Below are positions 3,973 through 62,116 of a stretch of 64,000 nucleotides of DNA, one piece after another. How positions within the stretch are numbered: position 1 is the first letter of the stretch; every line of letters begins with the position of its first letter. Location: positions 1 through 64,000 of the forward strand of contig NZ_JAAXPO010000006.1 in assembly GCF_012396485.1 (NCBI RefSeq), in the 5' to 3' direction. The notes below the pieces were generated by a model, which saw only the letters and a list, made by a program, of their open reading frames with translations, was not told the origin of the DNA and ran no database searches. This stretch comes from Leuconostoc holzapfelii. GTDB lineage: Bacteria > Bacillota > Bacilli > Lactobacillales > Lactobacillaceae. A program made the translations under genes and the position numbers.

Positions 3973-4068
3973 GTGTCTATCTCCCCCTAAAAAATTATGC
4001 TGACGTGTGTTAAATACTACGTTTTTGCGCTTGATTTGACACACATCATAATTCATTTTTGATACAAA

Positions 4069-4104
4069 TAAAAAGAGCAAAGCGCTGACGGCTTTGCTCT
4101 TTCT
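4069..4104 (-). terminator. terminator of the Asp23 operon
   Basis: Inverted repeat AAGAGCAAAGC / GCTTTGCTCTT with a 7-nt loop, followed on the minus strand by TTTTTA. It separates the Asp23 operon from the ABC exporter. Confidence 0.85.
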
Positions 4105-4109
4105 CAATG

Positions 4110-4244
4110 TCAACTTTTCTTTTTATTTCTAATGTCTTTGATTTCATGATAGACACTAAATAACAATTGGCCAACGGCCAACAAAACAGATAACCGGCTC
4201 CAAAAGCCAGCTTTTTTCATTTTATGCTTTTTTTCTGACATCAT
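4110..4244 (-). CDS. small basic membrane peptide, last gene of the Asp23 operon
   Basis: A 44-residue ORF starting with a double ATG behind a GGGGGAA ribosome binding site. A lysine-rich N-terminus (MMSEKKHKMKK) is followed by one hydrophobic stretch (about residues 17-31, SRLSVLLAVGQLLFSV) and a charged tail ending KKKS. It stops 6 bp before the operon terminator. The conserved translation signals and position support a real gene. No family was recognised. The operon context suggests an envelope-stress role at the membrane. Confidence 0.6.
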   Translation of the reverse strand: MMSEKKHKMKKAGFWSRLSVLLAVGQLLFSVYHEIKDIRNKKKS

Positions 4245-9789: not shown

Positions 9790-10072
9790 CAAAAAAATCC
9801 CATAGTCTCTGTTTTCAAACAAAGACTATGGGACGAGGTTATCGTGTTACCACCCAATTTTAATAAAGCATGACTACTTTATACTCTATAGGTACATCCG
9901 TGGAAATACCTTGTCGCGATAACGGGCGCACCCGAGACATTCTCACTTCACAAAGCTGACACGACTATGAACTCAAAGACCATATTCCGGCGCGCCTCAT
10001 GCCAAATCACACCCCACTTTGGCTCTCTATCAATCCGCTTCGCCGTACTCATCTTTTCAACGTTTAATCTTA
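9790..10072 (-). ncRNA. methionine T-box riboswitch upstream of metFE
   Basis: About 280 nt of leader on the minus strand. The T-box motif GGGTGGTAACACG is at 9855-9843. The terminator hairpin (CCCATAGTCTTTG / AGAGACTATGGG plus seven T) spans 9832-9790. Stem I contains AGAGAGCC, and a specifier-loop candidate GAATATGG places ATG (Met) at 9983-9981, matching the downstream methionine genes. Uncharged tRNA-Met should stabilise the antiterminator and turn on metF-metE. Confidence 0.92.
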
Positions 10073-13856: not shown

Positions 13857-14708
13857 TTAACGCGCGAGAATTTCCTTTAACGCCAATGGAAGCGGTGTTA
13901 ACTCACGACCCAAAACTGCCGCCAAGTCATCTGAAGCGACAGCTAACGATCCTTCAGCAATCGGACTTTGGAACGAAGCAAATAGCACGGCCAACTCGTG
14001 TGGTAAATCGTGGCTTTCTAAAATACTAACGTATTCGTCTTGTGTTACTTGTTTGACTTGAATAGCTTGGTCGGTGGCTTCACTCAGCGCTTGTCCAAGC
14101 GCTTCATAATCAGCTAATCGACCAGAAAATTCATAGACGGGCTTCGGCGTATCACTGACCAAAACTTTCGCAGCGGCTTCAGCATATTCGCGTTCCAACG
14201 CCCAACCCGCGCGTCCGGACGCCCAGTAGGCCGTGATTTTTTGCGTGGCACCGGTGGTAATAAACCCAGTTTCATTTTCAAGATACCAATTATTGCGCAT
14301 GATTGCTGCGGGAATGCCAGCGCTTGCTAAAGCTTTTTCAGTGGCTAAATGATCTGCCGCTAGCGCGCTCACAGATTGGTCTGCTTGAATGAAACTTGTG
14401 TAAGCGACAAATGACACATGCGCTGCAACCATGGCATCAATGACATTTTGATGTTGCTTGTCACGGGGCACGGGCCCACCGGGTTGCGATGAGATGAATA
14501 AGACACGATCAATACCGGCAAATGCGCGCGTCAAAGCATCGACATCATCGTAATCAGCGATCCGTACTTCGGCATCGGGGAATTGCTCAGTTGCCTTCGC
14601 TTGATTTCTAGCGATGACGACGATATCTTGATTATCGACTAGCGCTTGGAGGTAGTGATAAGCTAATTGACCAAAATGACCAGTAGCGGCAGTAATTGCA
14701 TATTTCAT
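13857..14708 (-). CDS. NmrA-like/SDR family NAD(P)-dependent quinone reductase-type protein
   Basis: 283 residues with an atypical-SDR Rossmann fold. The N-terminal TAATGHFGQLAYHYL is the NAD(P)-binding GxxGxxG-type loop, followed by VLFISSQPG and FVAYTSFIQAD. It resembles the QorB/NmrA group that reduces quinones or senses NADP. The start has an AAAGGAC site. It is transcribed together with, and probably controlled by, the Rrf2 regulator downstream. Substrate not determined. Confidence 0.85.
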   Translation of the reverse strand: MKYAITAATGHFGQLAYHYLQALVDNQDIVVIARNQAKATEQFPDAEVRIADYDDVDALTRAFAGIDRVLFISSQPGGPVPRDKQHQNVIDAMVAAHVSFVAYTSFIQADQSVSALAADHLATEKALASAGIPAAIMRNNWYLENETGFITTGATQKITAYWASGRAGWALEREYAEAAAKVLVSDTPKPVYEFSGRLADYEALGQALSEATDQAIQVKQVTQDEYVSILESHDLPHELAVLFASFQSPIAEGSLAVASDDLAAVLGRELTPLPLALKEILAR

Positions 14709-14769
14709 GATAAATGTCCTTTTCTATCAATGCCTGTTGTTTTATTTGTTACAAGTAGTATAGCACAGC

Positions 14770-14790
14770 TTGTTGTTTAAAAAACAACAA
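14770..14790 (-). promoter_or_regulatory. palindromic operator candidate for the Rrf2 regulator
   Basis: A perfect palindrome TTGTTGTTT-AAA-AAACAACAA lies 62 bp upstream of the reductase start and next to a TATACT -10 box (minus strand, about 14763-14758). It suits a homodimeric Rrf2 repressor. Confidence 0.6.
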
Positions 14791-14845
14791 TTTTTTCAAT
14801 TTTTAACAAATCAAACAATGTTAAGTAAAGTTTAATTCACCCCCT

Positions 14846-14854
14846 TGTTATACT
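14846..14854 (+). promoter_or_regulatory. extended -10 promoter of a candidate small RNA
   Basis: TGT-TATACT, an extended -10 box, with no good -35. The same TTGTTATACT string recurs at 15047-15056 before the MscL-like gene. Confidence 0.5.
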
Positions 14855-14860
14855 GTTAAT

Positions 14861-15041
14861 GTACCACGTTGGTACGCACGCAAAGCCATGTTTATTAAAC
14901 TATGTTTCTCAAATATACCGTAAAATTCATACTCCCAGAGCATGGTTTTTGTGTACATAAGGCCAATTTGGCCGCCATTCGATTCAAAGAACTGTAACAT
15001 GCTATTGCCTCATAAAACCTGGGGCGCTAGCATGTTTTTTT
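14861..15041 (+). ncRNA. candidate small structured RNA (about 180 nt)
   Basis: A non-coding stretch with its own promoter (14846-14854) and a strong terminator (AACATGCTA / TAGCATGTT plus seven or more T, 14996-15041). It folds locally: AAAGCCATG (14882-14890) pairs with CATGGTTTT (14941-14949); TATGTTT/AAATATA form a small stem inside; GGCCAATTTGGCC (14961-14973) is a hairpin. ATGTAC (14860-14865) can pair with GTACAT (14953-14958) to close the domain. A second promoter after the terminator serves the next gene, which argues for an independent RNA rather than an attenuator. Class not recognised. Confidence 0.45.
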
Positions 15042-15093
15042 GAGATTTGTTATACTTATTTCTACTATATTGATGAGGAATAGCCAGTAACAC

Positions 15094-15582
15094 ATGAAAA
15101 ACCCAAAAAAATTTATCCAACAGCAAACCAATCAAATGCTCAACAAGTCAACCGAACATTTAGGGCAGTTTAAACAATTCTTGTTTGCCCCTAACCTCAT
15201 CACATTTGTGATTTCAGTTGTTGTCGGTAATAGTTTTGGTGCCACCATTAAAACGCTTGTCAACCTTGTATTTGGCCTGTTTGATTTTACCAGAATTTGG
15301 CTTTTTTCAGCACAACACACGGCCTATTATAACCGCATTACACAGCCTTTTTCAGAATTTTCCAGCAGCCTGATTACCACAATTTTGATTGCAACGATTG
15401 TTTTTTTCACCATCCGTTTCATCAATGAAGCGCTCATCGTTGATCCTGTCAATAAGTGGGGCTACAATCAAGTGCATGCGGATGCCCTGCAATTACAAAA
15501 GCAAAATGAAGAAACAATTGCCTTGCAACGTCAAATTTTGACTGAGCTTGAAAAACTCAATCAGCAGCGTGACTCAAGGTAA
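15094..15582 (+). CDS. MscL-like mechanosensitive channel family protein
   Basis: 162 residues. The region FKQFLFAPNLITFVISVVVGNSFGATIKTL (about 27-57) matches the first MscL helix, with small residues along the pore face. A second span lies at about 94-113 (ITTILIATIVFFTIRFINEAL), followed by a cytoplasmic coiled coil (LQLQKQNEETIALQRQILTEL). It is longer and more divergent than standard MscL. Probably releases solutes at hypo-osmotic shock. A GAGGAA site is 13 bp from the ATG, which is long. It has its own extended -10 promoter at 15048-15056. Confidence 0.75.
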   Translation: MKNPKKFIQQQTNQMLNKSTEHLGQFKQFLFAPNLITFVISVVVGNSFGATIKTLVNLVFGLFDFTRIWLFSAQHTAYYNRITQPFSEFSSSLITTILIATIVFFTIRFINEALIVDPVNKWGYNQVHADALQLQKQNEETIALQRQILTELEKLNQQRDSR

Positions 15583-48169: not shown

Positions 48170-48702
48170 GTGGCTTCCCTTTCTTGCCATTTGGCTAATG
48201 TCGTTAATGTGGCCATGATCTCTGCTTGGGCTTCAGGATGTAGGAAGAAATCAGCAACCAGGCGATGAACAGACTGCTTGATTAACCAGGCCTGAATTGC
48301 CGAATCTGTTGCATCAGAACGCAGATGCCGCAATTGCTTGGCATGGTCTTCTGGAATGCGTTGCGCAATGATGGCAGCGTTGACGGTAAAATGATGTTTC
48401 AAAAAATTGTAGTCCGATCGGGTTGTGGCATGTTGCAAGAAAGCCTTGGTTTGTGCGATTTGCTCATCTTCACTTTTCAGTTGGGTATGAATATCTGTAA
48501 AAATAAGTTGCGCCGCCCATTGATACGCATCATAGATATCATCAAAATAGGTATAAAATGCCCCGCGGGAGATACCCGCTTGTTTCACGATATTGGCAAC
48601 CTTTGCATCTAACAAAGGATGGTTGGAAAACTCCAAAAATAAGGCTTGTTTTAAATTTTCCTGCTTGGCCGCGCTTAAATTGGTCAGTGTTGCTTTGATC
48701 AT
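48160..48702 (-). CDS. TetR family transcriptional regulator
   Basis: 180 residues. N-terminal helix-turn-helix (about 15-60: LFLEFSNHPLLDAKVANIVKQAGISRGAFYTYFDDIYDAYQW) with a helical C-terminal effector domain. First gene of an operon with an FtsX-type exporter. A perfect 42-bp palindrome 14 bp upstream of its ATG is the likely operator, making it an autorepressor relieved by an exporter substrate. Confidence 0.93.
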   Translation of the reverse strand: MIKATLTNLSAAKQENLKQALFLEFSNHPLLDAKVANIVKQAGISRGAFYTYFDDIYDAYQWAAQLIFTDIHTQLKSEDEQIAQTKAFLQHATTRSDYNFLKHHFTVNAAIIAQRIPEDHAKQLRHLRSDATDSAIQAWLIKQSVHRLVADFFLHPEAQAEIMATLTTLAKWQEREATCS

Positions 48703-48716
48703 CAGTGACTCCTTTC

Positions 48717-48758
48717 AAAAATGACACAATGTCACTATAGTGACATTGTGTCATTTTT
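48717..48758 (-). promoter_or_regulatory. 42-bp perfect palindromic operator of the tetR operon
   Basis: The half-site AAAATGACACAATGTCACTA is followed exactly by its reverse complement. Each half contains a TGACA-CAA-TGTCA dyad, so two TetR dimers could bind. On the minus strand TTGACT about 17 bp before CACAAT at the palindrome edge forms the promoter. Confidence 0.8.
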
Positions 48759-48774
48759 ATAAAAAAAAGTCAAT

Positions 48775-48797
48775 AAAAAAATACCTTACGGTATTTT
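48775..48797 (-). terminator. terminator of the VOC gene
   Basis: AAAATACC / GGTATTTT stem with T tract on the minus strand, upstream of the tetR promoter. Confidence 0.75.
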
Positions 48798-48803
48798 AAT
48801 CGG

Positions 48804-49157
48804 CTATTTTGGATTTTTCGCAATCACGTAATAGTTGCCTTCTGGATCAGCAAAGTTAAAGGTGTCATTCATCTTTTCTCGTCCTTCACCAAGCTTCTCA
48901 TAGAGCGCGTCGAATTTGTCTGTATAAAACATCAAAGACGGCACTGGGCCAAGCACTTCTGGCGAGTATTTGGCGATAAATGCTTTGGGAAACAGGCCCA
49001 ACGACAATTCTGGTGTCACAGTCAAATTCACGTTTGTATAGTTATCTGGCAAGCTGATGGTTTCGACAACTTGCGCCCCGAGATTAGATACAAAAAAGTC
49101 ACGAATCACTTGGACATCTTCAACGTACAACATCACGCGCGTTTGATTCACTAACAT
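48804..49157 (-). CDS. VOC (glyoxalase/bleomycin-resistance fold) family protein
   Basis: About 117 residues, two beta-alpha-beta-beta-beta modules: TRVMLYVEDVQVIRDFFVSNLGAQVV at the start and FNFADPEGNYYVIAKN at the end. Metal-ligand histidines of true glyoxalases are not evident, so a binding or dioxygenase-like role is open. ATG at 49157 with GAAGGAG. Confidence 0.85.
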   Translation of the reverse strand: MLVNQTRVMLYVEDVQVIRDFFVSNLGAQVVETISLPDNYTNVNLTVTPELSLGLFPKAFIAKYSPEVLGPVPSLMFYTDKFDALYEKLGEGREKMNDTFNFADPEGNYYVIAKNPK

Positions 49158-60823: not shown

Positions 60824-61845
60824 GGGGCGACCTCCTGATTAAAATATTGTTTGCGTAACGTGTTGCCCACACGTTGCAGATTATCTGGTGATTGCGTAAG
60901 TGTCAGCCCTGCTACACCGCCAGTTAAAGGTGTATCTGATGTATAAATTAAGCATTCGTGCCAAAGACACAGATCTAAAAAACTTTGCATTAACGTTGGC
61001 CCGCCTTCGACCATGAGGGATTTTATCCCCCGTTGCCCAAGATCGGCCATGACACCAGTTAACCCGTCAGCCATTAAAACAACGTTATCCGTTTGGGCAA
61101 ACACTTCATTTTCGGTGTACACAAGCCAGTTACTAGATCTTAAACTGGGATGGTTTTGCAATCGACCACGCCGATCAATCACCACGCGCAGTGGCTGTTG
61201 ATGCGTTAAAGTGATGCCACGGACATTTAATCGCGGTTGATCGATCAACCACGTCTCACTGCCAATCAAAATGGCGCTGGCCGCCGCACGTTGCAGATGC
61301 ACATCGCGGTCAGCCACTGCATCCGTGATTTTACTTTGAACGCCGGGTGCTGCTGTCACCATTCCATTATGCGACTGTGCTAATTTGAGTTGAACATAGG
61401 GCATGCGATGCGTATGAAATTGATAAAATGCTGGGTTTAATCGCTGACTGTCTGTCGTGTGAATAACATCGACAAGCATGCCGGCAGATCGTAATTTTTG
61501 AACGCCAAAGCCATGTGTTGATTGGTTAGGATCTAAATCACCAATGACAACCCGTGCCAAACCCCAGTGACTCATTGCCTCTGCACAAGACCCAACCTTT
61601 CCATGAACCGCACATGGTTCAAGGGTCACATAAAGCGTCGCGCCCATAGCATCTTCGGCACGCTTGAGTTGCCGATAGGCATTAATTTCTGCATGTGCCC
61701 CCCCAAAGTACTCGTGCCAACCAATCGCTATTGCTTGACCATTTTTGACAATCACTGCCCCTACGCGTGGATTTTCAAAAGTTTTTTCAGGTTGCGCTTT
61801 TTCGGCCGCGAGCGCGGCCATGCGTAACCATGTTAAATCGTCCAT
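60787..61845 (-). CDS. ribD: bifunctional riboflavin deaminase/reductase RibD
   Basis: About 352 residues. Deaminase domain (about 1-145): HAEINAYRQL and TLYVTLEPCAVHGKVGSCAEAM (zinc His/Cys); reductase domain (about 146-352): RMPYVQLKLAQSHNGMV, LRVVIDRRGRL and SLMVEGGPTLMQSFL. Second and third steps of the pathway. ATG at 61845 has AGGAGG; the longer frame would cover the riboswitch terminator. Confidence 0.96.
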   Translation of the reverse strand: MDDLTWLRMAALAAEKAQPEKTFENPRVGAVIVKNGQAIAIGWHEYFGGAHAEINAYRQLKRAEDAMGATLYVTLEPCAVHGKVGSCAEAMSHWGLARVVIGDLDPNQSTHGFGVQKLRSAGMLVDVIHTTDSQRLNPAFYQFHTHRMPYVQLKLAQSHNGMVTAAPGVQSKITDAVADRDVHLQRAAASAILIGSETWLIDQPRLNVRGITLTHQQPLRVVIDRRGRLQNHPSLRSSNWLVYTENEVFAQTDNVVLMADGLTGVMADLGQRGIKSLMVEGGPTLMQSFLDLCLWHECLIYTSDTPLTGGVAGLTLTQSPDNLQRVGNTLRKQYFNQEVAPCLLASHKPLVK

Positions 61846-61868
61846 CAATACCCTCCTATTTTTCAGGA

Positions 61869-61906
61869 CAAAAAACCCGGTGTGCAAATAAAAGCACACC
61901 GGGTTA
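61869..61906 (-). terminator. FMN riboswitch terminator
   Basis: AACCCGGTGTGC / GCACACCGGGTT with an 8-nt loop and six T on the minus strand, between the aptamer and ribD. Confidence 0.9.
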
Positions 61907-61956
61907 AACGTTTAAGATCGATTCAAAAAAGCCAACATAGTCTATTACGCCTACAT

Positions 61957-62095
61957 CGTCTATCTCTTCTCCCATCCAGACTTTAACTGTCGGTCACAGA
62001 ATCTCACTGTGTCAACCACCTGCCATAACAAGTGGGTCACGGACTTTGGTCTTTAGACCATCACCGTCGGTCGGGAATTTCACCCTGCCCCGAAG
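61957..62095 (-). ncRNA. FMN riboswitch (RFN element)
   Basis: Minus-strand aptamer with GGGGCAGGGTGAAATTCCC, GACCGACGGTGATGG, AGTCCGTGACCC, GTGGTTGACACAGTGAGATT and GACAGTTAAAGTCTGGATG, the conserved RFN blocks in order. With the downstream terminator it stops transcription of the rib operon when FMN is high. Confidence 0.96.
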
Positions 62096-62116
62096 ATTAA
62101 TTATTTAACACTTATT

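Follow-up and report, generated by a model that had tools for sequence, protein, structure and literature searches.

A candidate small RNA gene beside an MscL-like channel gene of Leuconostoc, probably one of a four-copy family in a single genome

The LhrC family of Listeria monocytogenes comprises five paralogous copies, each with its own promoter and with UCCC loop motifs that pair with mRNA; the same source describes UCCC as what small RNAs of low-GC bacteria use to bind Shine-Dalgarno sequences (PMC4132741). The csRNAs of Streptococcus are described as five highly similar small RNAs under the control of one response regulator, CiaR (PMC4507080, PMC3091779). Bacterial MITEs, or palindromic repeats, are characterized as short, dispersed sequences with inverted arms and no coding capacity (PMC10969869).

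The locus described here lies in a 64,000-nucleotide stretch of a Leuconostoc holzapfelii contig (the window), part of a genome of 1.76 Mb in 18 contigs. It is flanked by a divergent gene for an NAD(P)H-binding protein (13857–14708, − strand; Pfam NAD_binding_10), which a gene for an Rrf2 regulator adjoins, and by an MscL-like channel gene (15094–15582, + strand). We consider it fairly probable that the region 14849–15041 between these genes, which we call E1, encodes a small non-coding RNA. Because three diverged copies of the same promoter-plus-hairpin arrangement are present in the same genome, E1 probably belongs to a small set of related regulatory RNAs of its lineage. We know of no experimentally studied small RNA of Leuconostoc. 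Full-text searches returned no dedicated Leuconostoc small RNA study recognizable by title among the matches listed, and the nearest item among them was a 6S RNA survey of lactic acid bacteria.

Several attributes of a free-standing transcript had been ascribed to this region by the original prediction, and most of them are borne out. An extended −10 element (TTGTTATACT, 14845–14854, + strand) contains the hexamer TATACT at 14849–14854, and E1 would be transcribed from it with a start near 14861. As no −35 hexamer can be recognized by eye, and none is listed by the promoter scan, the promoter assignment rests on this extended −10. The string TTGTTATACT has exactly two occurrences in the window, both on the + strand and none on the − strand, the second one (15047–15056) being the identical promoter string that had been noticed in front of the channel gene. 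The predicted RNA is about 181 nt long (14861–15041, + strand), its start being taken from the position of the −10 and its end from a T run. It would begin with a GTAC-N7-GTAC pair (14861–14875, + strand), which may form a hairpin of 6 bp at the 5′ end or serve as the site of a regulator. The main hairpin (14872–14956, + strand), with a bulge ANRC in its 5′ arm, is followed by a small hairpin, GGCCAATTTGGCC (14961–14973, + strand), which the fold places in the E1 copy only, and by a terminator-like stem-loop (14997–15041, + strand; −20.1 kcal/mol), which would end the transcript. The stem of the latter runs into the T run 15035–15041, the first T being part of the stem. A simple terminator scan did not flag the stem-loop that ends at 15041, probably because the stem contains a mismatch.

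The folding energy of 14846–15056 is −57.3 kcal/mol compared to −43.1 ± 4.0 kcal/mol for 200 dinucleotide shuffles (z = −3.5). For the predicted RNA itself (14861–15041) z is −4.5 and for its opposite strand −2.3, and the 3′ stem-loop alone (14989–15041) gives −5.3. When the window was scanned in 181-nt stretches (798 in all, with a step of 160, on both strands and with 20 shuffles per stretch), the + strand stretch starting at 14881 ranked fifth, and 18 stretches had z ≤ −3.5. The fold strength of E1 is thus unusual in the window, but not unique. Very stable folds on both strands (z from −4.9 to −6.4) are found at 481–661, 4001–4181, 48641–48821 and 61761–61941.

The region had been said to fit no recognized RNA class, and the covariance search agrees: no Rfam family reaches its cut-off at E1, and relaxing the search to E up to 10 over 14600–15300 gives four matches at chance level (E from 2.4 to 9.7), none of them credible. 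Elsewhere in the window, an FMN riboswitch (61960–62101, − strand) and a T-box leader (9826–10069, − strand) score above the Rfam cut-off.

A 6S-like RNA had been named as one option for E1, which resembles 6S RNA in its size class. This reading might also draw on the failure of the Rfam 6S model to reach its threshold in the genus: none of the 19 Leuconostoc genomes has an RF00013 match above the cut-off, and a weaker full-length match is found in seven of them, not including the source genome, where RF00013 gives nothing at E up to 10. At E1, likewise, RF00013 has no match, either above the cut-off or in the search relaxed to E = 10. The DNA of one of the weaker matches, however, has a counterpart in 19 of 19 genus genomes; that of the source genome, its 6S candidate, lies at C13:13525–13752 (L109:1501–1728), between a rarA-like (RarA/MgsA-type) and a uspA-like (Usp) gene. 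The position between rarA and uspA is the one published for 6S RNA of lactic acid bacteria (PMC8414754). In addition, 6S RNA is a single rod, whereas E1 folds into several hairpins. The candidate elsewhere and the fold of E1 refute this option in practice, and we leave it next to no probability.

The original statement that no supported ORF is present holds, although one ORF is borderline by its codon score. This ORF would encode a protein of 50 amino acids on the − strand (14848–15000) and is preceded by a Shine-Dalgarno-like GAGG. Its codon score of 0.092, the 19th highest among 198 ORFs of 40–60 amino acids, lies towards the bottom of the range for real coding pieces (the 5% point of 247 such pieces is 0.079), and codon use therefore does not exclude it. 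Against a small protein gene stand (i) the absence of any Pfam match at E up to 1 for the four short ORFs on both strands at E1, and of any plasmid or phage match for the 50-amino acid ORF, (ii) the loss of its frame in the related units E2 and E4, no frame being kept across the units, and (iii) the likeness between the units, which follows the hairpin and the + strand promoter. The relatives' genomes were searched with the DNA of this ORF, at the nucleotide level. We consider a protein gene here very improbable.

The reading as an independent small RNA gains support from three paralogous units in the same genome that share the −10 position and the hairpin. E2 and E3 lie in tandem on contig C11 beside groEL, and E4 lies on contig C17 beside ubiE. 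The first lead was a 31-base, 87% match from a DNA search of the same genome (C17, E = 0.0115), which is an inverted repeat with arms resembling those of the window's main hairpin, and a search with the arm led to the two tandem units on C11. All four units have the same anatomy: TANACT (TATACT in E1, E2 and E3, TAAACT in E4), six bases, GTAC-N6/7-GTAC, and then the main hairpin with near-identical arms, GTACRCANRCAAARMCAT and ATG(G)TTTTTGYRTAC, and the four-base bulge. A −35 was seen in none of them. E3 is without the loop, and the E1 segment 14958–15041 is not common to the other units. Terminator-like stems follow E1, E3 and E4, those of E3 and E4 being shared with the convergent genes groEL and ubiE; none was seen between E2 and E3. 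Upstream of a PTS gene that adjoins E2, the sequence TGTAAACGGTTACA (L136:2829–2842, contig C11) presumably resembles a catabolite-control (cre) site.

As the family was assembled by eye from a hairpin arm as the seed, with the −10 and the GTAC pair as shared features beyond that seed, it was tested without E1. A profile built from the three other units recovered E1 at 14835–14959 (+ strand; E = 2.8e-5 in a search of 79 kb), the window's next match having E = 0.79, and a profile of E2 and E4 alone recovered it at E = 8.5e-4. Single-copy profiles found E1 weakly (E = 0.17 for E4 alone and 0.61 for E2 alone), and a profile of E1 only found E4 at E = 0.029. E2 and E4, compared directly and with no use of E1, share a match of 150 bp with 71% likeness (E about 1e-8). 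Since this match, which ends with the hairpin, begins 46 bases before the first GTAC, the promoter region belongs to the homology. A single-sequence model of E1 (R1), run against 18 chosen sources, matched itself and E4 (E = 0.0022), a weak result because the sources were chosen partly by likeness to E1. A hairpin model built from E1, E2 and E4 (R2) scores the E1 main hairpin at 77.4 bits, E1 being itself among the sequences of the model. By itself the hairpin arm shows no enrichment in the genome: with at most three mismatches it has 44 and 36 matches, compared to 38 and 37 for the reversed control.

Multicopy bacterial small RNAs, which are a kind and not a homologous family, are recognized by at least two paralogous units per genome, and there are four here. 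The likeness to LhrC lies in several paralogous units in one genome, each with a candidate −10 element, and in UCCC in the loop of E1. LhrC has repeated CU-rich sites, however, whereas the present units have one main hairpin with conserved arms, are predicted from sequence and have no known regulator. E1 has no credible Rfam match, a result that speaks to LhrC only as far as Rfam holds an LhrC model. The csRNAs are likewise several similar small RNAs in one genome, although their shape differs. Streptococcus belongs to the same order as Leuconostoc, and the CiaR box reads TTTAAG-N5-TTTAAG. By eye, this box is not a common feature of the four-unit alignment.

The units appear to be confined to the source genome. 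An exact pattern written from the four units occurs at four places there and at none in 396 other genomes of the bacterial family, and the DNA of 14850–15045 matches its own genome only, that is 1 of 397 (E ≤ 0.001, two candidates scored per genome). In the search of these 397 genomes with R2 (10 candidates per genome, stricter filters), three units were found in one genome at E ≤ 0.1; because E3 was not recovered, distant copies can have been missed. With laxer filters and up to 150 candidates per genome, R2 found all four units in the source genome among the 19 genomes of the genus. Its matches in nine other Leuconostoc genomes, which are no better than E = 0.29 (range 0.29–5), and one at 702–785 of the window (E = 2.25) are taken as noise. 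The corresponding sites of relatives differ in content: in L. lactis the same neighbours bracket a YdcZ-type exporter gene (Pfam DMT_YdcZ, L053:1869–2798) in place of E1 and the groEL site is some 330 bases shorter, and the ubiE site of both L. citreum and L. palmae is also reduced in length and has no unit. As the units are absent from these sites, they would have been either gained in the source lineage or lost, or diverged beyond recognition, elsewhere. The probable interpretation of this sequence record is a small RNA family with four copies, all in the source genome.

Neither the DNA of E1 nor that of E4 has a match in plasmids or phages. In viral contigs the unit pattern matched two places (L134 and L135), which were rejected: by eye, TANACT does not precede the first GTAC by exactly six bases in either, and the 3′ arm is seen in neither. 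L135 has an AT-rich TATAAAT, slightly shifted. The hairpin model finds nothing in L135, and the 18-base 3′ arm has no viral match.

Conservation of the stems in relatives had been proposed as a test of the original prediction, and its outcome is divided: the relatives lack the copies, and the paralogs keep the main stem with almost no covariation. Across the units, 96.4% of the 56 cells of the stem are paired, compared to 28–66% for slid partners, in a test that leans towards these sequences because the tested structure was derived from E2. Compensatory changes are minimal across the four units of this one genome: ten of 14 pairs are invariant, one double change is present (in one unit), and 257 of 500 shuffles match or exceed the observed covariation.

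Such a pattern bears on a different interpretation, in which the units are a small dispersed DNA element, MITE-like or a palindromic repeat, that has spread in the lineage, with arms that serve a transposase or another DNA-binding protein and with no functional RNA. The near absence of covariation, the conservation of the arms as sequence while the loops have diverged, and the empty sites in relatives all fit this interpretation, and the units do share with MITEs shortness, dispersal, inverted arms and a lack of coding capacity. Unlike MITEs, however, they are four diverged copies, at most about 71% alike where this was measured (E2 and E4), with homology that includes a −10 outside the arms and with no clear target duplication. 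The E2/E4 homology extends about 56 bases beyond the left arm, so that the element does not end in its inverted repeats. In the flanks tested, E1, E2 and E3 have no direct repeat of 7 bases or more, and a Pfam scan of six neighbouring genes near E2–E4 found no transposase; E4 has a flanking direct repeat of 8 bases. For an RNA speak the common direction of the units relative to the −10, the fixed distance of the −10, the extension of the homology into the promoter, the terminator-like stems behind three of the four units and the preservation of the stem in all four. We rate the dispersed-element interpretation, including the role it gives to the arms, as unlikely. A reading of the two TTGTTATACT strings as a target duplication was rejected, since TGAGATT and GCATG, which precede the right copy, occur in L. 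lactis as well. Among the matches listed in the MITE literature, there was no Leuconostoc item.

A combination of the two ideas, a mobile regulatory RNA gene in which promoter, GTAC site and hairpin spread as one unit, seems doubtful to us. Its conserved bulged stem would be recognized by a protein, which could be an RNA-binding regulator or an enzyme resembling a transposase. Insertion next to the terminator of another gene would provide the RNA end, and each loop would then be free to diverge and to gain its own targets.

The original prediction had also offered E1 as a leader whose terminator attenuates the channel gene. A cis-acting RNA of this kind, acting by attenuation or by transcription that interferes with the channel promoter, is suggested by its position: the terminator covers the site where a −35 of the channel gene would lie, and its CCTCAT can pair with ATGAGG upstream of the channel gene. 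Interference is conceivable because the E1 terminator ends ten bases before the channel's −10 (15047–15056, + strand; TATACT at 15051–15056). This TATACT and its 16-base distance to an upstream CATG are, however, identical in L. lactis and L. miyukkimchii, where the hairpin model found no copies of the unit, and the three paralogous units adjoin other genes. The channel thus keeps its own promoter in two relatives without the unit, and we do not favour an attenuator; a leader or other cis-acting RNA as the explanation of E1 appears quite improbable. As the terminator sits inside the promoter region of the channel, a cis effect at E1 may nevertheless be added to another function. The channel protein itself is divergent (Pfam MscL, E = 9.5e-8). 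It is the single MscL-like match of the source genome at E ≤ 1e-5, and a second, shorter match is found in G010 (L. lactis), G011, G002 (L. citreum) and G009.

If E1 is a small regulatory RNA, as we favour, it may lower the translation of target mRNAs in the manner of LhrC, by pairing of a loop CUCC with their Shine-Dalgarno sequences. The loop of E1 contains CTCCC (CUCC and UCCC in the RNA; 14932–14936, + strand), and CTCC precedes the 3′ arm by 5, 7 and 5 bases in E1, E2 and E4, respectively, and is absent from E3. CTCC occurs in all three loops in 0.055% of 20,000 shuffles, whereas 5.4% of them have some 4-mer in common within the last 14 bases of the loops; since CTCC was chosen afterwards, the motif is suggestive only. 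Translation repression by pairing is therefore favoured from the role published for UCCC (PMC4132741), and we put it forward tentatively, as a mechanism that could well prove wrong. If the family is real, a conserved stem with diverging loops within one genome would be a compact case of new regulatory RNAs arising. At its cut-off, Rfam reports neither this four-copy family nor the 6S candidate of the genus.

On the other side of E1, the palindrome TTGTTGTTTAAAAAACAACAA (14770–14790) borders the promoter region of the divergently oriented gene for the NAD(P)H-binding protein, and a near-identical palindrome is found upstream of the same gene in six other Leuconostoc loci (L004–L009). Judged by its sequence, it is likely to be an operator, perhaps that of the neighbouring Rrf2 regulator.
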